Positions 17,719 to 59,734 of a stretch of DNA of 64,000 nucleotides are shown here, piece after piece. The DNA is from Romanomermis culicivorax (lineage: Eukaryota; Nematoda; Enoplea; Mermithida; Mermithidae). Each line of letters begins with the position of its first letter. Within the stretch, counting starts at the first letter, position 1. The translations under genes and the position numbers were made by a program. Under the pieces are notes generated by a model. The model had not been told where the DNA came from. It searched no databases and was given only the letters and a program-made list of their open reading frames with translations. Location: the NCBI GenBank assembly GCA_963922205.1, contig CAWUHX010000005.1, forward strand, positions 1,798,001-1,862,000. Direction: 5' to 3'.

Positions 17719-20079
17719 TAAAATGTCAATGTTTTGATGCTAACTTTTGCATACTTTCACAAGGTTTATGGATTTTCAGGTTTCTCATTGTTTTCCTTCA
17801 AATACCTCAATTTGAGCAAATGAGCCTCCTACTTCATAATATTAGAATAGTACATTGATGCATCTTTTGGGCCAAATATTCATTTCTTGAAGTAGTTCAT
17901 CTACTTAATTTTGAACAATTTTAATATTCAAATCATTATTCCAAATTTCTGAAATGGACATCATTTCAAAAGTGTTATCACAAATAAGATTGACTGACAT
18001 ATTGACAATAATAACCATATTCCTGAATAATTGAACTCTCTTTATCTCTTGAACAACTTTCCATATCAAGTGCAAGAAATGCTGGAGATTGATGTGCTCA
18101 ATATGGATAATGAAGGTTGCTACCATCAATTCAGCCCCCATGTGGAAATACCAAGAGGTAGCAAAACAGTCGAACAATTCGAACTTCATGATTTAGCATG
18201 AAAAACATTTCTTTTTCACAATGACCTTTGAAGCCAGAGGAGTTTGCAGCAGATCAGGCTATTACTTCTGCCTTAGAATCATATTCATGCCATTATTCCA
18301 ATCACTCTTAGGATGGAGAGGAAGGAGCTAAAATTTTATTAAGGAGGAAATAACCGAGCTTTTAATACATTCACCATGCAAATTATCATATCAAGAGCAA
18401 AGTTATTTGACTAAAAATTAATGATACAGTAAGCTAATCACATCGCTCAGTCAAATTTGGCTGATCATTACTTGTTAAGAAATGGAATAAGCAAAATACC
18501 TATTTCAACATACTTGAAAGATGAGTACATTTAGGTTGTGAGTTTTCCATGAAGAGCAAAAGATCATTTTGAAGAGTTATCTGCTACAATTTCAATTCCT
18601 ATCATGTTCACAAAACTGCTTTCACATAGATTTTAACTCAGTTTGGAATTTACTTGATGTGTGGAGCCGTCATAAAAAGTTTGCAAAATAATAATCATTT
18701 TTCATCAAATTGAAAGTGTGTAGCCCAGTTGGCCTGGTCATTCATAACCAGGATGGCCCAGAGGAAATAAATGCAGCTCATGATAGCTTACCCTCACCAA
18801 TGAGGACTTCAAGATTTTGACAGTCAGGTTGTCAATAACTGATGTCCAGCCTATGTGTTCCATGGAGAAGACACTCTAGGGTCAACTGCCATAATTTCAT
18901 CTACTAGTATGTTGAAATCCATACAAATATTCTAGCTTGAACAGCTGAGGTACCAGAGTCAACTCAGGCCCAAAAATGTGCACTGCCAGGAAATTTCACG
19001 ATTTTTGACAACCAAATTGATTAAGAAATACTTGTTGTGTCCTTTAGAAATTTGACTTATGGCTATTGTGGTGATTAATTGCAATGATGTATGTAAGTGG
19101 TCATGGGCCATATGTTCATCTCCACTGATCACGAAAACATCACCTAACCTAAGTTCAATTTCAGGAATCCAAAGTTATTAAAATTTCTATTTTTCTCCCA
19201 ATTTTCATTAGTGGTCATATTGGTTTTATCTTTGATAATCAAACATTATTTCTGCTTTTTATCAACACCTTGTTTATCCTTTTTGTTAGCTCATGCTTAT
19301 TAGATTGTGACATCCAGGATAAAGTGCTGCCTTTGTCTGTGAAATCCAAAATTTAAACTGTAACTGTCACTCATTTGGGTGTATTGTCCAATAAAATATG
19401 TATTTCTGTTTGAAGTATTGTATGTTTTTACGTAGGCATCCTAGAAAGATGTTTTAGGATGCATTATATCACATATTCGAAGTGCATCAAAAACATTGAC
19501 ATTCTCAGTCATGTGCTGTATTCTGGATTGAGAAAATTAAATTCCCCTTCTTGTTTGTGAGTTTTTGCTCTTTTTTTGCAGATTTTTTTCACCTGACCAA
19601 TTTTTTAAAGTGAATTAGGAAGTTTGGTTGGCACAACTGTAAATTTAGTCTATTGTGAATGGAGATTCCATTGGAATGTGTTTTAAACGCGTTTTTGAGG
19701 ATTTTTTCAATTTTTCTTCTAACTATAAAATTATCATGTTCAAACAAGGTGTGTTCCGCCTGTGTTTGAAGACAAGTTCTTGAAAGAATTCAGTACCTCT
19801 GACGATAAATATCTGGTGGACTATGCTGAGGATATAACAAATCATTAGAAGATAATGGAAAAACAATGTTAAACATGCAAAATGTTGCCTAATTATTCAC
19901 CAAAAGAGGATACTCACATTGGAATATGAATATTTGAAACTTAATTTTTTCATATCGAGAATAAAAAATTTTATTGATGAAGTAAAGCAGGCATAATCTG
20001 TGTAGTGCTCAATTATCATGAAAATTTTCATGAAAAAATTGACTAATTGTTATCTCAAAAGACAAGGAAGGTTAAATGT
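17719..20079 (+). repeat. satellite unit 4 (direct)
   Basis: Fourth direct unit, 2.36 kb, closest to units 5 and 6. No uninterrupted gene. Confidence 0.9.
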
Positions 20080-22458
20080 TAAAATGTCAATGTTTTGATG
20101 CTAACTTTTGCATACTTTCACAAGGTTTATGGATTTTCATGTTTCTCATTGTTTTCCTTCAAATACCTCAACTTTAGCAAATGAGCCTCCTACTTCATAA
20201 TATTAGAATAGTACATTGATGCATCTTTTGGGCCAAATATTTATTTCTTGAAGTAGTTCATCTACTCAATTTTGAACAATTTTAATTTTCAAATCATTAT
20301 TCCAAATTTCTGAAATAGACCTCATTTCAAAACTGTTATCACAAATAAGATCGACTGACATATTGACAATAATAACCATAATCATAAATATTTGAACTCT
20401 GTTTATCTCTTGAACTCCATTCCATATCAAGAGCTAGAAATGCTGGAGAATGATGTGCTCAATATGGATATTGTAGATTGCTACTATAAATTCAGTCCCC
20501 AAGTGGAAATACCAAGAGGTAGCAAAACAGTCGAGCAATTCGAACTTCATCATTTAGCATGAAAAACATTTCTTTTTCACAATGACCTTTGAAGCCAGAG
20601 GAGTTTGCAGCAGATCAGGCTATTACTTCTCCCTTAGAATCATATTCATGCCATTATTCCAATCACTCTTAGGATGGAGAGGAAGGAGCTAAATTTTTAT
20701 TAAGGAGGAAATAACCGAGCTTTTAATACATTCACCATGCAAATTATCATGTCAAGAGCAAAGTTATTTGACTAAAAATTAATGATACAGTAAGATAATC
20801 ACATCACTCAGTCAAATATGGCTGATCATTACTTGTTAAGAGATGGAATAAGCAAAATACCTATTTCAACATACTTGAAAGATGAGTACATTTAGGTTGT
20901 GAGTTTTCCATGCAGAGCAAAAGATCATTTTGAAGAGTTATCTGCTACAATTTCAATCGCTATCATGTTCACAAAACTGCTTTCACATAGATTTTAACTC
21001 AGTTTGGAATTTGCTTGATGTGTGGAGCCATCATAAAAAGTTTGCAAAATAATAATCATTTTTCATCAAATTGAAAGTGTGTAGCCCAGTTGGCCTGGTC
21101 ATTCATAACCAGGATGGCCTAGAGGAAATAAATGCAGCTCATCATAGCTCACCCTCACCAATGAGGACTTCAAGATTTTGACAGTCAGGTTGTCAATAAC
21201 TGATGTCTTGCCTATGTGTTCCATTGAGAAGACACTCTAGGGTCAACTGCCATAATTTCATCCACTAGTATGTTGAAATCCATACAAATATTCTAGCTTG
21301 AACAGCTGAGGTACCAGAGTCAACTCAGGCCTAAAAATGTGCACTGCTAGGAAATTTCACGATTTTTGACAACCAAATTGATTAATAAAAACTTGTTGTG
21401 TCCTTTAGAAATTTGACTTATGGCTATTGTGGTGATTAATTGCAATGATGAATGTAAGTGGTCATGGGCCATATGTCCATCTCCACTGATTATGAAAACA
21501 TCACCTAACCTAAGTTCAATTTTAGGGATCCAAAATTATTAAAATTACTATTTTCCTCCCTATTTTCATTAGTGGTCATATTGGTTTTATCTTTGATCAT
21601 CAAACATTATTTCTGCTTTTTAGCAACACCTTGTTTTTCCTTTTTGTTAACCCATGCTTATTAGATTGTGACATCCAGGATAAAGTGCTGCCTTTGTCTG
21701 TGAAATCCAAAATTCAAACCGTAACTGTCACTTATTTGTGTGTGCTTGTTCAATAAAATATGTATTTCTGTTTGAAGTGTTGTATGTTTTTATGTAGGCA
21801 TCCTAGAAAGATGTTTTAGGATGCATTAGAATCACATATTCGTAGTGCATCAAAAACATTGACATATTCAGTCATGTGCTGTATTCTGGATTGAGAAAAT
21901 TAAATTCCCCTTCTTGTTTGTGAGTTTTTCGGCTTTTTTTGCAGATTTTTTTTCACGTGGCTAATTTTTTAAAGTGAATTAGGAAGTTTAGTTGGCACAA
22001 CTGTAAATTTAGTCTATTTTGAATGGAGATTCCATTGGAATGTGTTTTTAACGCGTTTCTGAGGATTTTTTCAATTTTTCTTCTAACTATAAAATTATCA
22101 TGTTCAAACAAGGTGTGTTCCGCCTGTGTTTGAAGACAAGTTCTTGAAAGAATTCAGTACCTCTGATGATAAATATCTGGTGGACTAAGCTGAGGATATA
22201 ACAAATCATTAGAAGATAATGGAAAAACAATGTTAAACATGCAAAATGTTGCCTAATTATCCACCAAAAGAGGATACTCACATTGGAAGATGAATTTTTG
22301 GAATATGAATATTAGAAACTAATTTTTTCATATCGAGAATAAAAAATTTTATTGATGAAGTAAAGCAGGCATAATCTATGTAGTGCTAAATTATCATGAA
22401 AATTTTCATGAAAAAATTGACTAATTGTTATCTCAAAAGACAAGGAAAGTTTAATGTT
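20080..22458 (+). repeat. satellite unit 5 (direct)
   Basis: Fifth direct unit. At 20370-20560 it carries the version of the recurrent frame typical of units 1-2 (LNSIPYQELEMLEND), embedded in a unit of the 3-6 subfamily. This mosaic suggests gene conversion between units. Confidence 0.85.
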
Positions 22459-23500
22459 AAAATGTCAATGTTTTGATGCTAATTTTTGCATACTTTCACG
22501 AGGTTTATGGATTTTCAGGTTTCTCATTGTTTTCTTTCAAATACCTATATTTGAGCAAATGAGCCTCCAACTTCATAATATTAGAATAGTACATTGATGC
22601 ATCTTTTGGGCCAAATATTCATTTCTTGAAGTAGTTCATCTACTCAATTCTGAACAATTTTAATTTTCAAATCATTATTCCAAATTTCTGAAATGGACAT
22701 CATTTCAAAACTGTTATGACAAATAAGATCGACTGACATATTGACAATAATAACCTTAATCGTAAATAATTGAACCGTCTTTATCTCTTGAACTACATTC
22801 TATATCAAGTGCAAGAAATGCCGGAGATTGATGTGCTCAATACGGATAATGAAGATTGCTACCATAAATTCAGCCCTTAAGTGGAAATACCAAGAGGTAG
22901 CAAAACAGTCCAGCAATTCGAACTTCATCATTTAGCATGAAAAATATTTCTTTTTCACAATGACCCTTGAAGCAAGAGGAGTTTGCAGCAGATCAGGCTA
23001 TTACTTCTGCCTTAGAATCATATTCATGCAATTATTCCAATCACTCTTAGGATGGAGAGGAAGGAGCTAAATTTTTTATAAGGAGGAAATAACCGAGCTT
23101 TTAATACATTCACCATGCAAATTATCAAGTCAAGAGCAATGTTATATGACTAAAAATTAATGATACAGTAAGATAATCACATCGCTCAGTCAAATATGGC
23201 TGATCATTACTTGTTAAGAGATCGAATAAGTGATATTGTGGTGATTAATTGCAATGATGTATGTAAGTGGTCATGGGCCATATGTTCATCTCCACTGATT
23301 ATGAAAACATCACCCAACCTAAGTTCAATTTCAGGAATCCAAAGTTATTAAAATTACTATTTTTCTCCCAATTTTCATTAGTGGTCATATTGGTTTTATC
23401 GTTGATCATCAAACATTATTTCTGCTTTTTAGCAACACCTTGTTTTTCCTTTTTGTTAGCCCATGCTTATTAGATTGTGACATCCAGGATAAAGTGCTGG
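22459..23500 (+). repeat. satellite unit 6, internally deleted, end of array
   Basis: The unit is normal to about 23229, then jumps ahead within the unit (GAATAAG then TGATATTGTGG) and stops near 23500 at AAAGTGCTG. This is the right edge of the array. Confidence 0.85.
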
Positions 23501-24838: not shown

Positions 24839-24928
24839 GTTCCACTGATAGAAAGAATCTGGCGCTACAGGGATTCACCCTCAGTTCCACTGATAGAAAG
24901 AATCTGGCGCTACAGGGATTCACTACAG
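24839..24928 (+). repeat. 45-bp tandem duplication
   Basis: The sequence starting GTTCCACTGATAGAAAGAAT occurs at 24839 and again at 24884, followed each time by CTGGCGCTACAGGGATTC. The second module (about 40613) has only one copy. This is one of the few structural differences between the two modules. Confidence 0.9.
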
Positions 24929-24990
24929 GGATTCAAACCCTGGTCGTCCGATTGGCAGTCTGGGATACTGCCACTCAGCCATGGGATCTT
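24905..24990 (-). mobile_element. tRNA-derived SINE-like sequence
   Basis: On the minus strand an A-box-like TGGCTGAGTGGC (24970-24981) and a B-box-like GGGTTTGAATCC (24929-24940) occur in tRNA order and spacing. Between them lies an anticodon-arm-like segment around ACTGCCAA. Stem pairing is degraded and no acceptor stem closes, so this is a tRNA relic or SINE head rather than a tRNA gene. The anticodon-loop resemblance to tRNA-Gly(GCC) is weak. Confidence 0.55.
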
Positions 24991-25029
24991 GAAATTGATA
25001 GTTAATATATTGTATGGATAGAAAAATGC

Positions 25030-25330
25030 AATTGATGATGACGAAGTGTTTTTGTCACATTTCCGGTTTTTTCTCTGAATTTTTCTTTTTTTTACATAAT
25101 TTTCTGTCTTTGATGCTTTTTGTATTTTTGTATATCTGTTTTCTGTATTGTCATCTCCATATTCTATATTTTCTTTTCCGTTTTTTTGTGTTTCTATTCC
25201 ATAGGCATTTTAAGAAATATGTCTCTCTTTTTTTTGTACTTTCCTTCCTTTATCATTTCCTTATCTTTTGCTGTTTATGTTTCACACACTCCTTTTTACC
25301 TGGTTTGTGGTTTCATAATAACATAAAACC
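25030..25330. repeat. T-rich low-complexity tract
   Basis: A pyrimidine-rich tract that gives artefactual phenylalanine/leucine-rich plus-strand frames (25014-25385 and 25120-25326). It recurs at 40760-41060 and 59880-60130, always between the tRNA-like sequence and the polymerase. Confidence 0.7.
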
Positions 25331-25463
25331 ATTCTGGATTCAAGTGCAGAGAAACAGATTAATGTTGAGTGGACTGGATGATTGAAGAATGAAGGGACAA
25401 AATATTTTCCACTTCTCAAACATTAACTAGACTTTCTAAAAATAAAGCACAGAATGGAGTCCT

Positions 25464-25900
25464 GTGAAATGTACACACCCATGACATGGAATAATAAGTT
25501 GCTTATTGACAAGTATGTATTGATAGAAGATGTGCCTGCCTGTGTGGATGTGAAAGAACATTGCAACACCTAATGATGTATAATGGACTTGTTTTTCTTA
25601 TCAGCCAGCCTCTGTGGATAGAAGACATGTTCATGAACATTGACTTATTGAAGAGAAAAGTAACAACACATAATGGCAAGCCTGTGCATGTAGAAAATGT
25701 GCAGGATTCTTGGTTCTGTGAAATGTACTCACCCAAAAAATTGAATAAAGAGTTGCTTATTGGCAAGTATGTATTGGTAGAAGACCTGCATGCTGTGTGT
25801 GTGCAAAAGAACATTGCAACAGGTAATGATGTATAATGGACATATTTTTCTTATCAGGGAGCCTCTATGGATAGAAGACGTGCTCTTGAACATTGATTAA
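25464..25900 (+). pseudogene. tandemly duplicated exon upstream of polymerase, copy A
   Basis: An exon-like stretch with its intron is repeated at a 254-bp period. The first copy reads around LLIDKYVLIEDV, the second around LLIGKYVLVEDL. The second ends ATTGCAACAG with a donor GTAATG, and TTATCAG acceptors precede CAGCCTCTGTGGATAGAAGA and GAGCCTCTATGGATAGAAGA. In the first copy the donor reads CTAATG. The plus frame 25561-25836 covers the second copy. No family is recognised; it could be a 5' exon of the polymerase gene or a separate small gene. Confidence 0.45.
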
Positions 25901-26083
25901 TTAAAAAAGAAAAGTGGCAATACCTAATGACAAAGTTAAAAAAAGAATTGTCTGCATGTGATGTGCATTGAGAAATCAAATAAAAAGGCAAAAACATTGA
26001 TCACAAAATATTTGCTCAAAATTTTTTACTGTTCTGAATTTGATTAATTCTATTAATAAAAAAGTTTCCCTTTTTGTCTCACT

Positions 26084-28318
26084 ATGGAAGATTATAATTC
26101 CGATGAATCTTATTCAAATAGTATTGATGACACCTTTATGGAGTGGATTTTGAATCCTGAAATCGAGATGTGTGCCCCGCTTGATCAAGCTGAAAATGAA
26201 GGGAGTACAGAATCGTCAAAGATGGCCTCTATCCAATATTGAAGTTCTAGTGGAAACTCCTAGACATACATTAATAGACAATGACCAGCCCCATGATCAA
26301 ATAGAAGAATGTTCTCAATCAGGTTAAGAAATACTTATAATATTGTTTTCATTTTTTAATAAGAGTATTTAGAGGTTCTGTTAGTGATGATGTTGATATG
26401 AAAGAGGGTGAGCTGCATAGTTTGCTTTCTGAACCTCTAGCTGATTGTGAATCAAGTATTAGTAGCCTGGACAGTTTGAATTGATGGTTCAATGAATGAT
26501 TCTGAACCAGAAATTGAGGTTATTGATGAATGGTATGAAAGTCAGCAGATACCATCTTGGCCAGCCATTTGTTCAACAAGTTCATAGATATGGTATCCAA
26601 GGTGAAGCACGACAGTTTCAGTTATGCAATCTGGAAAACTCTCACAACTTGCATGAACGTATGGGTGATATTTTTGATCATGCTCTTGATCAAATGGTCA
26701 ATAGTACTCCACCAAATGCTCTGGCTGGCGCTGTGTTTTTTCCTCCAAACCTTGATGAACCAATTTGTGTTCATTTTTAACTGGACAGACTATTGTAGAG
26801 CAATTTGACTGAGTTCTGCAATGGGATAAAGATTTGAACATTGAAGATCCTGAAGCAGTCATCCCAATTGTTACAGTTACACCACCATCAGGGTCTGGCT
26901 ACCATAATTGACATTGATAAACTTTCTCATAATGACTTTCTCCATCATGGTCATGTGGGATGTTTTATCGTGATAAAGAACAGTGATAATTTATGCCTGG
27001 CGTGAGCAATTGTTGTAGCTAAAGCTATGATAGGTAAGACAGATGGGGCTTATCAATGGGATAGTATACCCTGCAGTGAGGGTGGTAGCTGTTCATGGCA
27101 GACACAGAGAGCACATGATTTGATGACCAGAAGTGGTCTTCAAAACAACACTGGTCATTGCGGAATACAAGAATTGTAAATTATCCAAAGAACCCTTCCC
27201 GTGTACAAAATTAGAGTATTCAGCAAGGACGTTTATGGTGCCGTTATATATGAAGGTGAGGATCTATATCCCAATGTATCCAAATGTTAGTATACTCTCG
27301 ATTTCAGGTAACATAAATTCAGAAAAAGTTATTCATCTTTACCATCATAAGTGTCACTACGGAGTAATTAAATCCATGCTTGCATTCTTTGCACATGTCT
27401 GTTGGTGTGAAGACTGTAATATTGCCTATAACAACAAGAGTGACCATTGCTGTACAAACAAATGTTCATCATGTTATCATCGCCCACCATGCAACGAAGA
27501 TAGCATCATATGCTGTGATCAATGCAATCGATACTTCCGAAATACTACGTGTTTTGAAAACAACCTGCCGACATATTGTAAAGGTAACAACAAGGAAGCA
27601 ACTGGTTCAATCAGTGAAGGTGTGTCAATCTGTGATCCAATACAATGTTGCAAAAATTGTCATAAACAATTGAGACGAGCCCATACTGAACAACATAGAT
27701 GTGGGTACTACAAATGTGGAACATGTGATGAAGAAGTGAAAGATATTTTGTTTTTTTTCCATTGCTGATTTTTGTGAAATTTCATTATCTAAACACTACA
27801 TTTTTACAGGACATCTATGCTACATAAAAAATGTTGACGATAAAAACCTATCGAAGTTGGAACCAACAATGATCCATACGAAAATAACGATGATGGTGAC
27901 AATGTTGCTGATGATGAAGAACAAGCTTCCACTTCAAAGAAGACAAGAAAAAAACAAGACAAAGAGGATATCATGCAACGCTTTGTATTTTTGGACTTTG
28001 AGACCATCGAAGAACATGTGATTTGAGAAACTGAACTTGGTACAGAGTTGCAACATGTACCAAATCTATGTATTGCTCATGTAATTTGTGATGATTGCTC
28101 AGATCAAGATTATAATGTGCAATATGGATGATGTGGCCCAAAGAGGAATATCTTTAAAGGTGCTGATTGCCTGAAAGATTTTTGTCGATTTTTTTTTTAA
28201 TTCAAAGGCGACACATACTATGGCAATTGCCCATAATGCCAAAGGATTTGATTCCCATTTCATACTCCAATATCTTGACGATGATGGTGTACCCCTGAAA
28301 GTTGTCACCAAAGAAACT
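26084..28318 (+). pseudogene. Polinton-type DNA polymerase B, N-terminal half, copy A
   Basis: The frame opens at ATG 26084 (MEDYNSDESYSNSIDD). Fragments in shifting frames follow: DMKEGELHSLLSEP (26400), VIDEWYESQQIPSWPA (26520), NALAGAVFFPPNLDEP (26720), IVIKNSDNLCLA then TGA then AIVVAKA (about 26970) and YKIRVFSKDVYGAVIYEG (27220). A cysteine-rich block of many Cys/His pairs, CWCEDC through HRCGYYKCGTC, is uninterrupted at 27330-27767. The next exon (acceptor TTTTTACAG, start 27810) holds CYIKNVDD and an exonuclease I motif in FLDFETIEEH. Exonuclease II (AHNAKGFDSHFILQYL) is at about 28225-28275. The block order is that of the N-terminal half of Polinton family B polymerases, which act as protein-primed replicases. 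Coding similarity stops at CACCAAAG (28318), exactly where copy C has an exon end. Palm domain absent. Confidence 0.8.
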
Positions 28319-29220
28319 ACAAGGTTTTGGCTCTTGGTAGAGTCTAATTCCAGGGTAGTCATGAAAGCCCATGTCCTGAGAATCATGAAAACTAATGCCA
28401 GAAAGTTGCCCACATGTTAGTTACATTCAAATAATAAATTATGAATTTTCATTTCATCAGCAACAGTTCTGTTTTCAGACCCTTAATTTCTCCTTTTTTC
28501 TGTACTTTTTGGTTTAATCTGCTTCATTAGAATCACAATTTTTTTTATGTTTCATCTCTATCTTTTTTTCAAAAAAGAAATATAGGGATTTACAAATGAC
28601 ACTTTCTGGACATATTTGGTCATGTTTTATTTCACCAAATGCCTTTAAAAGGTGAGAGGAATTAGAGAAGAGAGGCTTAACTTCATTGTAATGAATACTT
28701 AATGGTTTCATAGACCAAGCCCTTTATCTCTATCACTATCAAACAGTTTCTGAACAGCATATGTTTATATAACCAATTTCTATTTTGTTGTTTGAATGTT
28801 TGATACATTACAGCAGAAAGCCTGAGTTTGTGCACAAGGTTTTGGCTCCAGGTAGAGTCTAGTTCCAGTGTAGTCATGAAAGCTCATGTAGTAAGAATCA
28901 TGAAAAGTAATGCCAGGAAGTTGCCCACATGTGAGTTTCATTCATATGATAAATTATGAACTTTGATTTTATAAGCAACAATGCTATTTTCAGACCCTTG
29001 ACCTTTACTAATTCCTATTAGTTTTAGGTTAGATCTGCATCATTAGAATCACAAAAACTTTTTTTTATTTTTCCATTCTATATGCTCCTGAAAAAAAGAA
29101 ATATAGGGATTCACAAATGACACTTTACAGACATATTTGGTCATGTTTTTATTTCACCAAATGCCTTTAAATGGTCACAGGAATTAGAGAAGAGAAGCTT
29201 AACTTCATTGTAAATATCTA
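28318..29220 (+). repeat. ~520-bp module in tandem, after copy A
   Basis: Two successive copies (from about 28318 and 28840) share GGTTTTGGCTC, GTAGTCATGAAAGC, AGTTGCCCACATG, the phrase AGAAATATAGGGATT and GAATTAGAGAAGAGA. The reading HVLRIMKTNARKLPTC is open in the first. The same pair follows copy B at 44048-44830. Origin unknown. Confidence 0.75.
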
Positions 29221-34012: not shown

Positions 34013-34745
34013 TCAGCCAGTCTTTTTGGAAAAGTAAGCTTTGATTATGGGCGGGGATCCTATGGCTGTGCTGCCTAACATTCTCTCGATGTCTGCCTCA
34101 GCTTCTTTGACACTGAAGCCAAGGGATCTGAGGGCTGTAATCATGTTCACGCTAATTTCTCCACAACTCCCTACCACTATGCTTGTGGTGTGAACATGGT
34201 AGTTGAGATCTGCACCCATTTCTCCAGCTAAGTTATCTCCAGGGGGAAAACTCCTTTCCTCCAATGGGTGCCCTTCGTTGAGCATCGAGTTTACCGCATA
34301 CTTTGCAACTTTGCGGAGTTCCTGTACCTCGATATTGGCATGCCATGACACTGCAATTTCGATTATCTGTACAGTTCGCTCCACATGATTGATCATTACC
34401 ATGTCAGGTCTGTTGTGCCTCACTTTGCGTTTGGTGACTATCTGGTGGTTCCAGTATAATTCTATGTCACCAGCTGCTCTATGTCCTTCTATCTCCTGTT
34501 TGTAATGACGGGTTTCAAACCCATACCTCACACACAGGCCGTAGTACAGGTTTCTAGCCACATGGTTGTGGCGCTTGACCAGCAGGTTCCTTCTCCAGTA
34601 TAGGCAGACTGACAAAACATGCTGTGCATTTTCTTTGTCCGATTGACACCATCTGCAAACCTGGTCCAGGTTGCTTCTATTGGCAGGTCCACTCTTCAGC
34701 AGTAGTTGCTCTTCCTGTGACAGGTAGGCAGTGATGGTCTGTGTT
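34013..34745 (-). pseudogene. R2-type restriction-like endonuclease domain
   Basis: The open frame 34013-34843 (276 codons) contains CRWCQSDKENAQHVLSVC at residues 63-80, a perfect C-x2-C-x7-H-x4-C zinc knuckle as in R2-clade elements. RHNHVARNLYYGL follows. HNRPDMVM (143-150) and IIEIAV (160-165) supply the PD...E part of a PD-(D/E)xK nuclease, and RKVAKYA (177-183) supplies the usual downstream Lys/Tyr. In intact elements this domain nicks the target site for target-primed reverse transcription. The first 35 or so residues look unrelated. The nuclease frame itself is unbroken, but the protein lacks reverse transcriptase and so cannot act alone. Confidence 0.7.
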
Positions 34746-34833
34746 CCATCATTTTCTCTCTCTTCAACAACAACAAGACACAGGCAGTCACAATTTTTAT
34801 TGTATAAACTAACAATAAAACAAAGAAAACTTT

Positions 34834-34857
34834 GAAGGAGCACTCACGTGCTCCTTC
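34834..34857. other. perfect 10-bp hairpin
   Basis: GAAGGAGCAC (34834-34843), loop TCAC, then GTGCTCCTTC (34848-34857). It lies at the junction between the 5' coding remnants and the nuclease domain, where the reverse transcriptase would have been. It may mark the deletion join; a role in RNA folding is also possible. Confidence 0.7.
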
Positions 34858-36740: not shown

Positions 36741-36760
36741 AAGGGATAAAAGGAAAAAAT

Positions 36761-36791
36761 CGTCGCTGCTATGGCAAAAGGTTCTATATCC
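36761..36791 (+). repeat. left terminal inverted repeat
   Basis: 31 bp, exact reverse complement of 40017-40047. It includes one inverted copy of the subterminal motif GGATATAGAACCTTTTGCCA. Target duplication AAAT immediately outside (36757-36760). Confidence 0.95.
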
Positions 36792-37091
36792 GTTTTTGCA
36801 AGTTTCGAGAAAAACGCGTTTGAAGTTTCAAATGTTTCTGAAAAATCGAATTTTTTGACAAACAAAAAGATTTTTGGCAATAACAAAGTTCATGCAGTGC
36901 TTAAACTTGGTTTACAGTAGTATAACATTATCTTCGTCCAGTAGCTAAATATAGCACATTTTGTGGATATAGAACTTTTTGCAAGAAAAAATTTTTACCA
37001 TTTTTAGGATTTAGAAATTCATTAACAAGAAACAATAGCATAAGGTTTATTTCCAATTTTCAGAAACGTGTTAACAATAGCTGCATAAGCT

Positions 37092-39669
37092 TCAGTCACT
37101 ATCAGACAAATCTTCATCATCATCATCGCCTTCTTCAGCGCCTCCAATAAAATCCAATGACCTATAATGAGACATAGTAAAGTGAGTTTAGTATTAGTAC
37201 AATGAGTTATCCAGCTGCTCACTTGAACCAGTCTTGGTATTCAATGGGTATCAAATTGTTATTGCACAAGGACACCAAATCGTCTTTTTTGGCCTTCTTG
37301 ATAGGCAGGGCCGAATCGTACAAAGCAGGCCAGCCGTTTGATGCTGACGGGCGCCCCCGAATCCGACCTTTTATTGAAACAACCTGAAAGTTTTTAAATT
37401 ACAATTTGGTCAATATTTAAAGAATGTGATTTTTGTACCTGATATTCCTCGCCATGGCTGTACGTAAAAAGCATCATCCCACTGTTGTTCGTGTCGAACT
37501 TAACAGCCTTAATTTTCATCCAATTTGATCGACTGCCATTCGACATTTTGTCCATATTGCTGGCTTCATTTTTCTGCACAGCTTTTAAATCCACAAAATC
37601 TCTCCAAGATAACCGGATAACGTTATACGGGCGTTTTGATCGTGCTAACTTCATAATATTGCACCAGTTGTTTGGCGCAAAAATTGAAGCATGTTTTGAT
37701 GCACGTTCGATACTTGAGTGCATCGAATCCACGGACATTTGGGTGTGCCCAGTCTCCAAATATTTGTGCTCAATCGACTCCAGTTGTGGCATTTCCTGGA
37801 CCAATTTGTTGTACATCGACATTAAGAACTTGTTGCGATTTTGCCCGCCACAATTATCGGACCAAAAGACAATTTTCGATTTGCCTTTTTGTACTTGAAT
37901 TTCGACGAATTTTTTGATGCATGAACCAATTTCATTGGGGCCACGTTTACCATCATTTCCGTCCACACAAAGCAGAAAGCTTCACCCGAATTTTCGATGT
38001 ATACGGTCAAATTGTAGAGACAAAGTTTTCGTTTATAATAAAACTGGCTTTCTTTGGCGTGTGGAATCTGAAGAACAGACTGTAGGTCCAGAGTTGCCAC
38101 AACTTTGCAACTTTCTTCTTTTGCTTCAACAATCGACTGCTTCATGGCCGATCGGGCCAAATCTTTGCGGCTGATGTGGTCTTTAAAATCATTTTCTATA
38201 GTTTCGTCACCAATGCTACTTCCCATTTTATTTTTATAAGCAGCACATTGTGCACACTGGTCTTTTCTTGGCTGATGGAATCCAATGTTGAATTCAGTTG
38301 CGAAAATCCTTTGATATGTCGCAAACGAGATTTTGCAGCTAATTGGTTTGTCCTCCCATTCATTAAACAGCTCGTATAATTTGACAACACTTAAATTCGG
38401 ATCAAGGTACTGACGTCGTGACGATTTTCTGCAGTAATGCGAAGGGACACGTGGAAATGAATTTATATGGGCAATAATCGAATTTTTGTAATTAGATTTT
38501 AATTTGTGATGTGGCTCATGGCGCCCTTGTTGACTGACGGCATGAACCGACTTTGACGAATCACATCTTTCATACGCTGAGGTAATTGGCTTGTGAGAAA
38601 TGTCCAGCGTTTTCAGGAAAAAATCCTTGCAAACTTTTAACTTCTGCCCATCTTTCGCCAAGTAATAGTTTAATGAATGCTTCTTCCTGGAAGATTCAGG
38701 GTTTCCCGTTCGACATCGTTTTGCTGTTTCACGTTCGGTGTATCTCAGTAAGAATTCCTTCTTGCCGATTTCATTTTCGCCGTAATTCCAATAACTATCG
38801 AAAATGTCTTGACGATCTTTATCAGTAAAATCCGAGCAGCAGTAGCTACTTTTTTCCGGGTGCTGATGGTTTTCAATTGGCCGGATACTACGTTTTGGGT
38901 ACGATTTTCCTGAAAACAGGATAAGTGTGAATTCACAAGTTTAAAATTATGTACCTACCTATCTAAAAATTACCCAAATGGTTGACGTAAGAAAGGCCAC
39001 TGTTCCTCCGCTTTTTTATTATTTTCCGCTTGTGCTTTTCTGGCTGAGCAGCTGTCCAACGTGTTCCATTAGCCTTTAAACATGCAATTGTTTATACCTA
39101 ATTGTAAAATAATATGCCTGGATCAGGAAATAATGGATGATTAAAATTACCGTGCAATTTTCCTGTTCATCCATATCTCCTCCTTGGTCATCATTTTGCG
39201 ATTCGGTAGATTCAGCTGGATTATTGCCAATAGCCTGATTATTGGAAACAGTTATTTTTTTATTTTTTAATCAAATTTTTAAGGAAAATCTGTATAAAAT
39301 TTACCTGAGTTTTTTCCGTTTCTGGCGTCACAACATTGCTACGTTCCGATTCAGATTCAATAGTTTCATCTAAAACCTGAAATATAATTCCATTATTAAT
39401 TTATTTTGTAGAAGTTGTATAGTTTTCTAACTTACTGATTCATTATCGGTTGAACTGGATTCGGATAAATGAGACGGTAAATAATCGGGATCATTTTCGC
39501 TAGATTTTCTGCCACACAGTCGCCGCTTTTTGGAAGGAATTTCTGTAGGGGCATCCAATGTTGGAGGATGTCCAACCATGCTTTCCGGGCTTGGATCCTC
39601 AATAACTTCCTCCGTTGCGAAAAATAAATCGATGGCTTTGTCCACAGTCATATTAGATTTAGAATTCAT
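37092..39669 (-). CDS. seven-exon transposase-like gene with one frameshift
   Basis: Exons in transcript order: 39436-39669, 39305-39376, 39151-39234, 38974-39073, 37439-38909, 37223-37383 and 37092-37161. All introns are GT..AG and all joins keep phase. The predicted protein is about 730 residues once a single missing base near 37950 is allowed for. N-terminus: acidic and Ser-rich, with KKRRLCGRK. Middle: RWTAAQPEKHKRK, YVNHLG, a Cys-rich part (SSYCCSD), KVCKDFFLKTLDI and CAQCAAY. Core: VVATLDLQSVLQIPHAKES, then FCFVWTE, frameshift, RGPNEIGSCIKKF, FWSDNCGGQNRN and LETGHTQMSVDSMHSSIERA. C-terminus: acidic, EEGDDDDEDLSDSD. The Asp-rich core (LDLQ, SDNCGGQN, GHTQMSVDS) looks like an RNase H-fold transposase. 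The shift lies in a GGAAATG context; it could be a real mutation or a sequencing error. Confidence 0.8.
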
Positions 39670-39776
39670 TTTAAATCAATAATTAACTACAACTTATCAA
39701 ACAATTAATTTAAACCTAAATGATAAATAGAACTATACAACACAATTAGAAGTTGATCATTCAAACAGGCTTTAGC

Positions 39777-40037
39777 GGATATAGAACATTTTGCCAGAAA
39801 AATTTTTAGTCGTCAAAAAATTTTCAATCGGGCAAAAGGTTCTACATCCAATTACGTGGATATAGAACCTTTTGTCAGCAAAAGTTTGAAACCAAGGATA
39901 TAGCACCATGTGAAAAAAGGCACTTAGAAGTGTCTTGGATATACAACCTTTTGCCAGACACTTTATTAGGCATTTATGAGTATCATAAGACTCATAACGC
40001 CAAAAATGCAAAAAATGGATATAGAACCTTTTGCCAT
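39777..40037 (+). promoter_or_regulatory. subterminal motif array, right end
   Basis: Copies of GGATATAGAACCTTTTGCCA or close variants lie at 39777, 39830 (inverted), 39858, 39937 and 40017, with a weaker one at 39896 (GGATATAGCACCATGTG). Left-end copies are at 36771 (inverted) and 36965. Such subterminal repeats are usually transposase-binding sites. They lie within about 270 bp of the right end, upstream of the gene's first exon, so autoregulation is possible. Confidence 0.8.
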
Positions 40038-40047
40038 AGCAGCGACG
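40017..40047 (-). repeat. right terminal inverted repeat
   Basis: 31 bp, exact reverse complement of 36761-36791, with AAAT at 40048-40051 directly outside. Confidence 0.95.
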
Positions 40048-40051
40048 AAAT

Positions 40052-40610
40052 AATATTGTTATTTATCAGGGGATAGAATAGAACAACCCTTTTATATGAT
40101 GTGCTCCACCAGAGCATTGGGTTTGTGATTTGGATTAATGAAAAATATGCGTAAGGTACTTAGAAATTGGTGGAAGGTGGCTGACAAAGTCAGCTGCTGT
40201 ATTACTGCCTCAGTAATGGATTTTGACCAGTGATTACACTTGCCATAGATGGAAGGGCGGATGCAACAGCATCAGGCTCTTCCAAAGTACTATAATAAAC
40301 CTCATCTTATAGAATTAGATTACACAGCTTTCCTGTTCTGTTTTGACCTTTATATAAACATCAAGGAGACCATCAAAGGTAATATGAACAGTCAACTTCC
40401 ACTAAGATGATAAAAGTTTAAATTATGGCCAAACAACTAACATCAACTTTCATTCCATTTCATCCTAAGTCATTTGGGGAAGGAATGAATCTGTCTCAGT
40501 AGTAAGGCCTGTGGAACTGGGCGTTTTTTGACATCATCCACTTTTTCACGTGTAGTCATGTGGCTATGCATCATCAAGTGACTATGCATGACTGTTGACA
40601 TCATGTGTCC
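40052..40610 (-). other. continuation of segmental duplication, no clear gene
   Basis: Matches 59317-59700, with about 150 bp extra near 40230-40330. Minus-strand reading LTVHITFDGLLDVYIKVKT is preserved in both copies (59355-59576 in the other). Position and strand would suit coding sequence upstream of the integrase, but no reverse transcriptase motif was seen. Confidence 0.4.
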
Positions 40611-40629
40611 CTCAGTTCCACTGATAAAA

Positions 40630-40715
40630 AGAATCTGGCGCTACAGGGATTCACTACAGGGATTCAAACCCTGGTCGTCGGATTGGCAGTCTGGGATACT
40701 GCCACTCAGCCATGG
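40630..40715 (-). mobile_element. tRNA-derived SINE-like sequence, copy B
   Basis: Same A box (40701-40712) and B box (40660-40671) on the minus strand as at 24905-24990, with a single copy of the 45-bp flanking phrase. Confidence 0.55.
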
Positions 40716-41193
40716 GATCTTGAAATTGATAGTTAATATATTGTATGGATAGAAAAATGCAATTGATGATGACGAAGTGTTTTTGTCACATTTCCGGTTT
40801 TTTCTCGAATTTTTCTTTTTTTTACATAATTTTCTGTCTTTGATGCTTTTTCTATTTTTGTATATCTGTTTTCTGTATTGTCATCTCCATATTCTATATT
40901 TTCTTTTCCGTTTTTTTGTGTTTCTATTCCATAGGCATTTTAAGAAATATGTCTCTCTTTTTTTTGTACTTTCCTTCCTTTATCATTTCCTTATCTTTTG
41001 CTGTTTATGTTTCACACACTCCTTTTTACCTGGTTTGTGGTTTCATAATAACATAAAACCATTCTGGATTCAACTGCAGAGAAACAGATTAATGTTGAGT
41101 GGACTGGATGATTGAAGAATGAAGGGACAAAATATTTTCCACTTCTCAAACATTAACTAGACTTTTTAAAAATAAAGCACAGAAAGGAGTCCT

Positions 41194-41630
41194 GTGAAAT
41201 GTACACACCCATGACATGGAATAATAAGTTGCTTATTGACAAGTATGTATTGATAGAAGATGTGCCTGCCTGTGTGGATGTGAAAGAACATTGCAACACC
41301 TAATGATGTATAATGGACTTGTTTTTCTTATCAGCCAGCCTCTGTGGATAGAAGACATGTTCATGAACATTGACTTATTGAAGAGAAAAGTAACAACACA
41401 TAATGGCAAGCCTGTGCATGTAGAAAATGTGCAGGATTCTTGGTTCTGTGAAATGTACTCACCCAAAAAATTGAATAAAGAGTTGCTTATTGGCAAGTAT
41501 GTATTGGTAGAAGACCTGCATGCTGTGTGTGTGCAAAAGAACATTGCAACAGGTAATGATGTATAATGGACATATTTTTCTTATCAGGGAGCCTCTATGG
41601 ATAGAAGACGTGCTCTTGAACATTGATTAA
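41194..41630 (+). pseudogene. tandemly duplicated exon upstream of polymerase, copy B
   Basis: Equivalent of 25464-25900 with almost no differences. The plus frame 41291-41566 gives the same product as in copy A. Family unknown. Confidence 0.45.
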
Positions 41631-41813
41631 TTAAAAAAGAAAAGTGGCAATACCTAATGACAAAGTTAAAAAAAGAATTGTCTGCATGTGATGTGCATTG
41701 AGAAATCAAATAAAAAGGCAAGAACATTGATCACAAAATATTTGCTCAAAATTTTTTACTGTTCTGAATTTGATTAATTCTATTAATAAAAAAGTTTCCC
41801 TTTTTGTCTCACT

Positions 41814-44048
41814 ATGGAAGATTATAATTCCGATGAATCTTATTCAAATAGTATTGATGACACCTTTATGGAGTGGATTTTGAATCCTGAAATCGAGATG
41901 TGTGCCCCGCTTGATCAAGCTGAAAATGAAGGGAGTACAGAATCGTCAAAGATGGCCTCTATCCAATATTGAAGTTCTAGTGGAAACTCCTAGACATACA
42001 TTAATAGACAATGACCAGCCCCATGATCAAATAGAAGAATGTTCTCAATCAGGTTAAGAAATACTTATAATATTGTTTTCATTTTTTAATAAGAGTATTT
42101 AGAGGTTCTGTTAGTGATGATGTTGATATGAAAGAGGGTGAGCTGCATAGTTTGCTTTCTGAACCTCTAGCTGATTGTGAATCAAGTATTAGTAGCCTGG
42201 ACAGTTTGAATTGATGGTTCAATGAATGATTCTGAACCAGAAATTGAGGTTATTGATGAATGGTATGAAAGTCAGCAGATACCATCTTGGCCAGCCATTT
42301 GTTCAACAAGTTCATAGATATGGTATCCAAGGTGAAGCACGACAGTTTCAGTTATGCAATCTGGAAAACTCTCACAACTTGCATGAATGTATGGGTGATA
42401 TTTTTGATCATGCTCTTGATCAAATGGTCAATAGTACTCCACCAAATGCTCTGGCTGGTGCTGTGTTTTTTCCTCCAAACCTTGATGAACCAATTTGTGT
42501 TCATTTTTAACTGGACAGACTATTGTAGAGCAATTTGACTGAGTTCTGCAATGGGATAAAGATTTGAACATTGAAGATCCTGAAGCAGTCATCCCAATTG
42601 TTACAGTTACACCACCATCAGGGTCTGGCTACCATAATTGACATTGATAAACTTTCTCATAATGACTTTCTCCATCATGGTCATGTAGGATGTTTTATCG
42701 TGATAAAGAACAGTGATAATTTATGCCTGGCGTGAGCAATTGTTGTAGCTAAAGCTATGATAGGTAAGACAGATGGGGCTTATCAATGGGATAGTATACC
42801 CTGCAGTGAGGGTGGTAGCTGTTCATGGCAGACACAGAGAGCACGTGATTTGATGACCAGAAGTGGTCTTCAAAACAACACTGGTCATTGCGGAATACAA
42901 GAATTGTAAATTATCCAAAGAACCCTTCCCGTGTACAAAATTAGAGTATTCAGCAAGGATGTTTATGGTGCCGTTATATATGAAGGTGAGGATCTATATC
43001 CCAATGTATCCAAATGTTAGTATACTCTCGATTTCAGGTAACATAAATTCAGAAAAAGTTATTCATCTTTACCATCATAAGTGTCACTACGGAGTAATTA
43101 AATCCATGCTTGCATTCTTTGCACATGTCTGTTGGTGTGAAGACTGTAATATTGCCTATAACAACAAGAGTGACCATTGCTGTACAAACAAATGTTCATC
43201 ATGTTATCATCGCCCACCATGCAACGAAGATAGCATCATATGCTGTGATCAATGCAATCGATACTTCGGAAATACTACGTGTTTTGAAAACAACCTGCCG
43301 ACATATTGTAAAGGTAACAACAAGGAAGCAACTGGTTCAATCAGTGAAGGTGTGTCAATCTGTGATCCAATACAATGTTGCAAAAATTGTCATAAACAAT
43401 TGAGACGAGCCCATACTGAACAACATAGATGTGGGTACTACAAATGTGGAACATGTGATGAAGAAGTGAAAGATATTTTGTTTTTTTTCCATTGCTGATT
43501 TTTGTGAAATTTCATTATCTAAACACTACATTTTTACAGGACATCTATGCTACATAAAAAATGTTGACGATAAAAACCTATTGAAGTTGGAACCAAAAAT
43601 GATCCATACGAAAATAACGATGATGGTGACAATGTTGCTGATGATGAAGAACAAGCTTCCACTTCAAAGAAGACAAGAAAAAAACAAGACAAAGAGGATA
43701 TCATGCAAGGATTTGTATTTTTGGACTTTGAGACCGTCGAAGAACATGTGATTTGAGAAACTGAACTTGGTACAGAGTTGCAACATGTACCAAATCTATG
43801 TATTGCTCACGTAATTTGTGATGATTGCTCAGATCAAGATTATAATGTGCAATATGGATGATGTGGCCCAAAGAGGAATATCTTTAAAGGTGCTGATTGC
43901 CTGAAAGATTTTTGTCGATTTTTTTTTTAATTCAAAGGCGACACATACTATGGCAATTGCCCATAATGCCAAAGGATTTGATTCCCATTTCATACTCCAA
44001 TATCTTGACGATGATGGTGTACCCCTGAAAGTTGTCACCAAAGAAACT
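41814..44048 (+). pseudogene. Polinton-type DNA polymerase B, N-terminal half, copy B
   Basis: Same structure and same major breaks as copy A: ATG 41814, conserved N-terminal block with the CLA-TGA-AIVVAKA stop, uninterrupted cysteine-rich block at 43060-43497, exonuclease I motif FLDFETVEEH at about 43723, and exonuclease II AHNAKGFDSHF at about 43955. Shared disabling changes show the gene was already dead before the duplication. Differences from copy A include Arg to Gly in NRYFGNTT and several CpG transitions. The donor after EEVK reads ATATTT instead of GT in both copies. Confidence 0.8.
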
Positions 44049-44830
44049 ACAAGGTTTTGGCTCTTGGTAGAGTCTAATTCCAGGGTAGTCATGAAAGCTC
44101 ATGTCCTGAGAATCATGAAAACTAATGCCAGAAAGTTGCCCACATGTTAGTTACATTCAAATGATAAATTATTAATTTTCATTTCATCAGCAACAGTTCT
44201 GTTTTCAGACCCTTAATTTTTCCTTTTTTTCTGTACTTTTTGGTTTAATCTGCTTCATTAGAATCACAATTTTTTTTATGTTTCATCTCTATCTTTTTTT
44301 TCGAAAAAGAAATATAGGGATTTACAAATGACACTTTACAGACATATTTGGCCATGTTTTTATTTCACCAAATGCCTTTAAAAGGTCAGAGGAATTAGAG
44401 AAGAGAAGCTTAACTTTATTGTAATGAACACTTATTGGTTTCATAGATCAAGCCCTTTATCTCTATCACTATCAAACAGTTTCTGAACAGCATATGTTTA
44501 TATAACCAATTTCTATTTTGTTGTTTGAATGTTTGATACGTTACAGCAGAAAGCCTGAGTTTGTGTACAAGGTTTTGGCTCCAGGTAGAGTCTAGTTCCA
44601 GTGTAGTCATGAAAGCTCATGTAGTAAGAATCATGAAAACTGATGCCAGGAAGTTGCTCACATGTGAGTTTCATTCATTTGATAAATTATGAATTTTGAT
44701 TTTATAAACAACAATGCTATTTTCAGACCCTTGACCTTTACAAATTCGTATTAGTTTTAGGTTTGATCTGCATCATTAGAATCACAAAAACTTTTTTTTA
44801 TTTTTTCATTCTATATGCTCCTGAAAAAAA
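44048..44830 (+). repeat. ~520-bp module in tandem, after copy B
   Basis: Counterpart of 28318-29220, ending about 100 bp earlier within the second copy. Similarity to copy A stops at about 44833 (CTGAAAAAAAGAAA). Confidence 0.75.
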
Positions 44831-46149
44831 GAAAAACAACTTCTATAGACATTTTCAAATCAATGATCTTGAAATGATTTGAAAGAGTGTCAAGAGGTCA
44901 GTACTACGAAGAAAAAATTTCTTGAATAGAGCTAACGAGCCTCCCATAATTTTTGAAGATAGTTTGACTGATTTGCTGCATCAATCATTTCAAAATGAAT
45001 TGAGTATAACTCAAGCATTCAGTTAAGTGAACTTTTTATAAATTGCCGATCTGCAAAGTTGACAATTACAGTATGAAATCTGTTTGCAATTTTTCATTTC
45101 AAATTGTTGGATGTCTAGATTTTATTGTGCAGGTACACATGTGTGATAGATATCGAACTTTCACATAAAAATACAGTAATCCGCAGTTTGGCCACTCTGT
45201 TTGTGTACAGCAATAATCTTGAAGTAAATAGATATATGTTTTTTCAATAAAGGTACGCCCACACAAATTAGTATAACCTTTGGCATAACCAAACATGCAT
45301 GGGAAGAATTTCCTTGGGGGGAGGGTCAATGGACTTTTTATTCAGGGGTAGGGGAGTCAGTGAGCAAAAAACCAAAGAAAAAGTTCTGAAATCTTGTTTT
45401 TCATACAAAATATGCACAAAAACTATCAAAAAGGTGGTCTTCAAAAAGTACTGGGGACCGATTTTCATGATTTTTTTCGGCCAACAGGGGTGGCCAAAAT
45501 CTCAGATGTGGGAGTTTACCCCGTATCCCCTCCATACGTGCATGTACTGTCAAAACAGTTTCACAGGTTCATAAATTTTCTTGTCAACTTCTGACATGAG
45601 TCAGCAGTGGTTTTTCTATTCTTTACTGTTGCCTCAAACAATCCACAAACACTTCAAGGAAGGGTCACAAACATTGTTCAAACACTTTTCAAAAGCATCA
45701 CAAACAAAATTGCTTCGAACACTGTTTGTAATGGTTGAGAATCGTTTGAGCAAAGTTTGTCCAATTATTTGAGAAGTGTTTGAATTTCAAACACAAATGC
45801 GGCGTTGTTTGTGCGCTGGACTGTAATTATCACATATCATTTCATAATCATTAATGGTCTTTATTTCGCTGAAAATGGAGATTTTCAGACTTTAATTTTT
45901 GTTTTAAAGATTGGAGAATTTGTGTTTTCTCTTATTCATGAATTGCTCAGAAATAAGTTTTTTTGCATAATTAGATCCTTCTAGACTGTGAATTTAAAAC
46001 TTCTATTCTGGAATGATATGGAGAGTTGATTTCTAAATGCTTCAGAATACACAAATTCAAAATTTTCCCAGCACTTTACTCCCAGAATAGAAATAATAAA
46101 CTTCAATAACTGTAATCAGTATGATCAAAATGTCCTGGTTTTTTGTGAA
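44831..46149. other. no recognisable gene
   Basis: 44840-45030 has a short plus reading (VLRRKNFLNRANEPPIIFED and SLTDLLHQSFQNELSITQAF) that could be a coding relic. 45300-45590 is locally G-rich with frames lacking motifs. 45630-45810 has repeated AAACACTT/AAGTGTTT phrases in both orientations, perhaps a small foldback element. Confidence 0.4.
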
Positions 46150-57967: not shown

Positions 57968-58310
57968 TGAAAAATCAAACATAAATTTTAGTAGTGTTTT
58001 AGAGAATAGCATGTAGATTTGGGGATTCAAGCCAATCCCTACTGTAGTTATTTTATTATTATCTTAATTTTTATTAATTTTAAATTTTGCACATATTAAT
58101 TTTAAATGTTGCACATATGGAACCAAACTGAAAATGTTATATATCACGCAAACCTAATCTTGAAAGATAACTTATAAACCTAATAAACCCTGAAATTTGG
58201 TTCAGTGAAAAATAAAATTACTGTACAAAGTAAGTATCTAAAGGTTCCCACCGTATGAAATCCTCTGAGGGTTCAAAAATATATGTTGTATAAAATGAAT
58301 GGGAATTATG
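57968..58310. other. segment specific to copy 2
   Basis: It occupies the place of the R2-like insertion of copy 1. AT-rich, with an internal short repeat (AATTTTAAATTTTGCACATA, then a variant). Either the ancestral sequence deleted when the retroelement inserted, or a separate insertion. Confidence 0.5.
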
Positions 58311-58518
58311 ACTGATCTTAAACACAGGCCTCCTAAAACAAGATGAACTACCAGAAATTGAAGCAGATGGGTCAAGAGAGGCAAATAATTGCCTAGACCT
58401 CTTAGATAAAAAAACAGTAACCTGAGAGCACACACATATGGTGTGAAATGAACAAAAACAAACATTAATCAAAAAATAAAAGAGCAAAAGTTAATCAGAC
58501 TAATCTAGCATGAAAAGC

Positions 58519-58557
58519 TGTATATAAGAGCCTGTAACTCTTATCCTCTGTTCTGTC
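58519..58557 (+). promoter_or_regulatory. LTR-like core promoter, copy 2
   Basis: TATA box GTATATAAG at 58520 and TTCTGTCC about 31 bp downstream, followed by CAGTTCAG phrases and AATAAATATG at about 58700. The initiator-like site differs by one base from copy 1. Confidence 0.4.
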
Positions 58558-58849
58558 CATTGGTTCAGTTTGTAGTTCAGTCAGTTCAGATTAGTAAATC
58601 TGTGCAGTATTATCAGTTCATCTAGTTCAGCATTTAGTCGATTTAGCCTCATTAGTTCCATAATTTTTATTTACTCATTTATTTGCATATTATTATATCA
58701 ATAAATATGTACTGCCCCCAGTACCAAAAGAACCACTTGACACCCTATCTATGTCCAAGTATGTACTAGTGTATATTAAATTTGATAAGTTTCAAATAAA
58801 TCTTAAAAGTACAAACTTAAGTCCTCAGGGACCAAATACCTGCATATCA

Positions 58850-59230
58850 AAATTATGTTATCTCTACAGTACTCCTACCTAGTTTTCTTCCAAAGAACTT
58901 AGACCCTGACACTATTTGTGGAATATTTGTGTTGTATTGCTTTTTCTAGTGGCACAAATTACTTGCATGAGTGAAGTCTGTCATAAACACTTGTGCAACT
59001 TTTTCTGATTTTTCTGATAGTTCCACTGCAGTTGCATATTCTGTCAAGTACTTGCAGAAAACTATGACATATTTGTTCTCTATTTGGCTTAAAAATAGTG
59101 GACCTAAAATGTCCATTTCAACCCAATCAAAAGGTCCTGGTACCCAAGTTGGAATAGGGGCAGCATGATTTCTTTTTGCCAATGCTTTCTGGCAGTGCAA
59201 CTGACACAGCTTACACAACGGTCTCTGCTG
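58850..59230 (-). pseudogene. retroviral-type integrase fragment, copy 2
   Basis: The minus frame 59218-58946 reads CKLCQLHCQKA (C-x2-C of the zinc arm), WVPGPFDWVEMDILGPL with the first catalytic Asp, NKYVIVFCKYLTEYATAVEL and VAQVFMTDFTHASNLCH. Past a stop, IPQIVSGSKFFGRKLGRS occupies the place of the second-Asp block, with Gly instead of Asp. An rve-type integrase joins element DNA to the host genome. Gypsy-like LTR elements and Polintons both carry one; the short proline-rich linker before the core and the GPL motif favour a Gypsy-type source, but the polymerase and ATPase 1-4 kb away keep a Polinton source open. Confidence 0.65.
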
Positions 59231-59315
59231 TCATGGTGTACTGTAGGTGGAAGCAACCTATAAGAAGCAATTAATAGAACAGAACAATAAAGTTAGGGGA
59301 TAAAAGGAAAAAACA

Positions 59316-59734
59316 ATATTGTTATTTTTCAGGGGATAGAATAGAACAACCCTTTTATATGATGTGCTCCACCAGAGCTTTGGATTGTGATTTGGATTTA
59401 GGAAAAATATGGGCAAGGTACTTAAGAAATTGGTGGAAGGTCGCTGACAAAGTCAGCTGCTGTATTACTGCCTCAGTGATGGATACCTTATAGAAGTGGA
59501 TTATGCAGCTTTCCTGTTTAGTTTTGACCTTTATATAAACATCATGGAGACCATAAAAGGTAATATGAACAGTCAACTTCCACTAAGATATTTTATTTTG
59601 AGTCATTTGGGGAAGGAATGAATCTGTCTCAGTAGTAAGGCTGGTGGAACTGGGCGTTTTTTGACATCATCCACTTTTTCAAGTCATGCTTAGTCACATG
59701 ACTACATCATGTCTCGCTCAGTTCCATCAAATCC
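59316..59734. other. continuation of segmental duplication
   Basis: Contains the empty target site of the 36761-40047 transposon at its left edge, then sequence matching 40052-40610. No gene recognised. Confidence 0.6.

Follow-up and report, generated by a model that had tools for sequence, protein, structure and literature searches.

The closest known counterparts of the element reported here are the Sola2 transposons, whose target-site duplications follow the pattern AWWT in the portion of the dictyostelid study available (PMC3627910). According to the same portion, dictyostelid Sola2 elements end in terminal inverted repeats (TIRs) of 12, 13 or imperfect 21 bp and carry a Fanzor protein (PMC3627910), and the accessible part of a further paper reports Sola2-derived MITEs in a wasp (PMC7822920). 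Beyond the lengths of TIRs and target duplications, no account of Sola end architecture was found in the available parts of eleven papers (PMC3627910, PMC4455052, PMC10294476, PMC7998251, PMC7822920, PMC9783078, PMC8230255, PMC3985635, PMC11071193, PMC5718144, and PMC4298943). Likewise, the literature searched yielded no description of a Sola subterminal array, many papers lying outside that library. In bacteria, the ends of Mu and Tn7 each carry several spaced transposase-binding sites, which are unequal between the two ends. The element described below is comparable to these in having multiple spaced sites and unequal ends, a likeness in how the systems would work and not one of membership, as Mu and Tn7 are bacterial and use different proteins.

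Element ends, target duplications and predicted transposase

The window, which is the whole 64,000-nucleotide stretch of Romanomermis culicivorax DNA that was analysed, contains a transposon of 3,287 bp at positions 36761–40047, delimited as follows:

36757..36760, no strand: AAAT target-site duplication, left
36761..36791, plus strand: left TIR, 31 bp, matching the right end at 31 of 31 positions; the same ends recur genome-wide
40017..40047, minus strand: right TIR, 31 bp, pairing with the left end
40048..40051, no strand: AAAT target-site duplication, right
59310..59313, no strand: empty target site, AAAC, within a paralogue of the flanking repeat

The first mismatch between the TIRs falls at position 32, and adding one flanking and six inner bases brings the end pairing to 37 of 38. 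Both flanks of the insertion are found joined, with no intervening sequence, in a paralogous stretch at 58306–59484, with identities of 90% for the left flank (to 58306–59313) and 93% for the right (to 59311–59484); the target reads AAAC there and AAAT at the insertion. The first-pass annotation had called this a complete transposon and pointed to an empty site elsewhere in the window, citing perfect 31-bp inverted repeats, flanking AAAT and an uninterrupted homologous site near 59310, and is confirmed on each point, the coordinates of the repeats being exact.

The inverted repeats recur elsewhere in the 359-Mb genome: allowing up to 3 mismatches, the 31-mer was located 9 times in forward and 9 times in reverse orientation, and a reversed-pattern control not at all. 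The lack of further copies, which the first-pass annotation had named as refuting its reading, was therefore not observed. The nearest copy, on contig C283, is complete and 99.5% identical to the window element (16 differing alignment columns of ~3,290), with identical ends and its own AAAT duplication on both sides. C73 holds a third copy, of 99% identity, which has lost one end to an assembly gap.

More distant relatives were sought with the protein predicted from the C283 copy, which gave at least 120 matching stretches in the genome, counted as stretches and not as elements; a degenerate TIR pattern search gave no matches. In addition to the window, 37 genome places were examined (38 in all: the window, L009–L019, L027–L046 and L047–L052), and both ends were placed in 16. 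Those left out of the counts had one end only, had no clear end pair, or were weak candidates (L033, L034, L042 and L050 among them). Fifteen elements were counted for the motif array described below, and the target-duplication count adds L017. An exact 4-bp duplication flanks 11 of the 16 bounded elements (ten AWWT and one AATG) and is absent in the other five, and flanks agree at no length of 5–10 bp in any of the 16. For six of the 11 (the window element, L009, L015, L016, L018 and L044) the bounds needed no adjustment by hand; those of the other five were trimmed or set by eye. Trimming removed one base from L036 and L043 and a palindromic ATAT from L039 and L041, so that these begin at CG like their relatives; for L037 and L051 the ends were judged visually, and their positions shift by one base per side from the array count to the duplication count. 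Lengths of 3.26–3.51 kb and CG at both tips are each seen in 13 of the 16 bounded elements, and TIRs pair at 27–31 of 31 positions in 12 elements other than that of the window.

Several individual copies show features of their own. In L010, the C73 copy, the gap is bordered, between the lost element end and the run of N, by the sequence AAGCAGTGGTATCAACGCAGAGTAC. We take this to be a SMART-type adaptor from cDNA synthesis, likely left uncleaned in the assembly. The element copies at L013 (C145) and L014 (C163) share the same 20 bp of flank beyond the end that was located, representing either an uncollapsed haplotype or a recent duplication. L018 (C192), at 2.15 kb, has ends and arrays identical in kind to those of the 3.26-kb L016 (C151), and is an internally deleted derivative that is probably non-autonomous. 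L017 (C177:604270–611956) has 7.7 kb between related ends, without a matching 4-bp duplication, and possibly contains a nested insertion or combines the halves of two elements.

The transposase gene is predicted to comprise seven minus-strand exons, in a model built from reading frame and GT–AG junctions:

39436..39669, minus strand: predicted exon 1, with the start codon at 39669
39305..39376, minus strand: predicted exon 2
39151..39234, minus strand: predicted exon 3
38974..39073, minus strand: predicted exon 4 (frame, GT–AG junctions)
37439..38909, minus strand: predicted exon 5, the main exon, with the DUF7869 domain
37223..37383, minus strand: predicted exon 6 (frame, GT–AG junctions)
37092..37161, minus strand: predicted exon 7, ending at the stop codon (frame, GT–AG junctions)

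Applied to the C283 copy, this model gives a 730-residue protein with one internal stop read as X. None of the three near-identical copies has an intact gene: exon 5 of the window copy has one reading-frame break relative to its two sisters, the C283 copy has the internal stop, and the C73 copy has a stop and several length changes. Some of these breaks may be assembly errors.

The 195-aa window ORF of the main exon matches Pfam family PF25273 (DUF7869) at 45 bits (E 1.2e-11), above the gathering cut-off of 26. At E 1e-3, 366 homologues were found; the 120 listed share 31–43% identity over 66–100% of the query part and, where a name is given, are called uncharacterised, hypothetical, unnamed or DUF7869 proteins, with none called a transposase. 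Hosts named among those listed include a weevil, leaf beetles, moths, a cockroach, an aphid, a copepod, a snail and a fish, the snail and fish homologues falling below the Pfam DUF7869 cut-off, and these insect, copepod, snail and fish proteins are placed in the same protein family as the window transposase. Across the 120 listed homologues and the sister-copy protein, D391 (0.99), D467 (1.0) and D509 (1.0), in P0001 numbering, are conserved and are likely the DDE/D catalytic residues, and C337, C340 and H361, each conserved at 1.00, likely form a zinc site. This conservation suggests that the DUF7869 protein of the window element is a DDE/D transposase. In the window family, Ser takes the place of Glu 507 of P0001. 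This position is therefore not an obvious candidate for the third catalytic residue, whose identity is uncertain. The predicted transposase matched no solved structure by sequence and no NCBIfam family, the viral contigs searched with the sister-copy protein gave no match, and of 23 pattern matches to alignment A1, none was confirmed as a relative.

The element is probably a young cut-and-paste DNA transposon of the Sola2 type, a filing made by target duplications. Superfamilies other than Sola2 also make 4-bp duplications, so that this length alone is not specific, and Pfam gives no superfamily name; membership of another cut-and-paste superfamily (Sola1, Sola3, Ginger, Chapaev or an unnamed one) is nevertheless unlikely, as the AWWT composition fits published Sola2 targets. 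The Sola2 filing is preferred because the AWWT duplications match those published for Sola2, and the element shares both these 4-bp AT-rich duplications and the possession of TIRs with the dictyostelid elements as described in the available part of that study, although its TIRs are a perfect 31 bp (PMC3627910). Two suggestions of the first-pass annotation bear on this point. Its proposal of a Sola-type element gains support from the duplications (11 of 16), which resemble those of Sola2 in the same source (PMC3627910), and stops short of proof. Its alternative of a little-described superfamily holds in part, at the level of the protein, for which the only Pfam name is DUF7869, a term occurring in no paper of the library searched.

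Subterminal motif arrays

Bases 13–31 of the TIR form a 19-bp motif that recurs inside both ends of the window element, upstream and downstream being given relative to the gene. With up to 4 mismatches the element has seven copies, including the two in the TIRs, all within ~275 bp of an end, and the remaining 60.7 kb of the window has none:

36773..36791, plus strand: motif copy in the left TIR, downstream end, site at 13
36965..36983, minus strand: subterminal copy, downstream end, inverted site at 205 (2 mismatches of 19)
39777..39795, minus strand: subterminal copy, upstream end, site at 253 (1 mismatch)
39831..39849, plus strand: subterminal copy, upstream end, inverted site at 199 (1 mismatch)
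39858..39876, minus strand: subterminal copy, upstream end, site at 172 (1 mismatch)
39937..39955, minus strand: subterminal copy, upstream end, site at 93 (1 mismatch)
40017..40035, minus strand: motif copy in the right TIR, upstream end, site at 13 (0 mismatches)

Allowing 5 mismatches adds a weak upstream site at 134. The start codon lies ~379 bp from the upstream end of this copy, with the denser array in between.

Each of the 15 elements counted contains 7–10 copies of its own core (up to 5 of 19 mismatches), two of which are the TIRs; Markov-shuffled elements (50 shuffles each) contain a mean of 0.02–0.24 copies and at most 2. The layout is common to all 15, which belong to 12 diverged families with differing motifs, though these are families of one genome that share ancestry, so that the layout does not stand for 12 independent events. 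At the upstream end, sites lie at 13, ~92 and 172–190, followed by an inverted site at 189–230 and at least one more at 242–271, whose orientation varies among elements. At the downstream end, a site at 13 is accompanied by an inverted site at 190–206, and some elements have one or two extra. Off-plan copies are few, one mid-element copy in L036 being an example. The first three upstream sites of the 12 family representatives give 24 spacings, of which 19 are 78–81 bp and five are 88–90 bp, with none between; these two classes differ by about one helical turn, and few events of descent may lie behind them. The downstream inverted site ranges from 190 to 206 without stepwise classes.

The sites were also compared among families, using for the window element the positions from the array count. 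For every one of the 48 array sites of the 12 representatives, its own TIR core is a better match than the cores of other families are on average (2.69 versus 6.92 mismatches). Measured against the single best core of another family, 39 are closer to their own, five are tied and four are closer to the other; among 600 random mid-element windows, 0.2% match at up to 5 mismatches. Every one of the 48 is likewise closer to the other sites of its own element (mean 3.68) than to same-position sites in other families (9.41). In both comparisons, locating sites by their match to the own core favours likeness within elements, and the 19-mers of L037 and L051, out of register with the rest, inflate distances across families. 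For 31 sites the nearest of the 47 others lies in the same element; for one it occupies the corresponding position of a different family, for two it lies elsewhere, and the remaining 14 are tied.

These distances bear on whether the subterminal repeats are leftovers of end duplication or sequence turnover that common descent alone has held in place. Shared ancestry of all the families, parts of 23 pairs of which are aligned by blastn, agrees with such an origin, as do the two sources of bias just described; passive descent, however, would be expected to favour the same position, where the nearest site is found in 1 of 48 cases, and likeness within elements exceeds same-position likeness at all 48 sites. 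The within-element result therefore lowered, by a small step, a confidence in descent alone that was already low, and this origin is considered improbable. The layout and motifs instead suggest that the subterminal arrays are transposase-binding arrays with unequal ends.

Age of the insertion and surrounding sequence

The left 501 bp of flank has at least eight other copies at 92% identity or more (40 of 78 candidates scored), of which seven are on contig C5, one of these within the window, and one is on C365. Seven matches span all or nearly all of the 501 bp and one spans 287 bp. The junction is empty in seven of the eight: five match on both sides of it, and in two the match covers the left side and 12 bp beyond. 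The eighth stops short of the target. The three closest copies are 98–99% identical over the left flank and 97–98% over 420 bp around the junction, with a single AAAT as against two at the window insertion; their right flanks are more diverged, at 92–93% over long matches in two of them. With seven of eight flank copies empty, the insertion is therefore judged from these alignments to be young, or fairly recent, and to postdate the split from each empty copy. An insertion younger than the duplication of its flank had been claimed beforehand, and this order of events stands; the flank is indeed duplicated, but as a multi-copy repeat and not as the single segmental duplicate then envisaged. Cut-and-paste elements do excise, but it is barely credible that the empty sites are precise excisions and not never-occupied targets, as seven separate flank copies cross the target without a footprint, and a single insertion is a likelier history than seven excisions that each left no trace.

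Two 4.2-kb stretches (24878–29101 and 40609–44834) are 98.8% identical, and each contains a cysteine-rich 213-aa ORF (27127–27768 and 42857–43498) for which Pfam returned no family at E 0.1. Overlapping direct and inverted repeats occupy 8337–23499, including tandem copies of ~2.36 kb at 15378–23230. A 276-aa ORF on the minus strand at 34013–34843, ~1.9 kb from the insertion, has a weak, sub-threshold match to zf-RVT (E 0.037) and is perhaps a LINE fragment. The flanking repeat was considered as a possible Maverick/Polinton-like element because the ORF at 62401–63162 is reminiscent of a viral-type DNA polymerase B. This reading had no Pfam support at that ORF, and the matches listed (80 of 1000 candidates scored) included no DNA_pol_B_2 on the contig of the window.

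A model for the recognition of unequal ends

In the proposed mechanism, the DDE/D-type transposase of the element would excise it at its CG...CG ends and integrate it at a target of the form A(A/T)(A/T)T, these 4 bp being duplicated in the process. The subterminal array would provide docking sites for transposase protomers, and the greater density of its upstream part would let the enzyme distinguish the two ends. Because the upstream array sits just upstream of exon 1, it may also let the transposase damp its own promoter, a form of autoregulation. Extended to the group, the sequence comparisons moderately favour a model in which ordered arrays of binding sites allow DUF7869/Sola2-type transposases to recognise unequal ends, the geometry of the arrays (~79–80 or 88–90 bp between the first three sites) being kept as the motif co-diverges with the enzyme of each family. 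Constant geometry combined with a changing motif is what would be expected of binding sites that track their own transposase.

Taken alone, the insertion is a clear but unremarkable example of a young transposon whose paralogous sites are empty. DUF7869, a domain present in many uncharacterised insect proteins, is now tied to elements that have transposon ends and duplicate 4 bp of their target. What can be carried over to other systems is the end array, conserved and unequal, which offers a testable model of how this group of transposases may recognise the ends of its elements.
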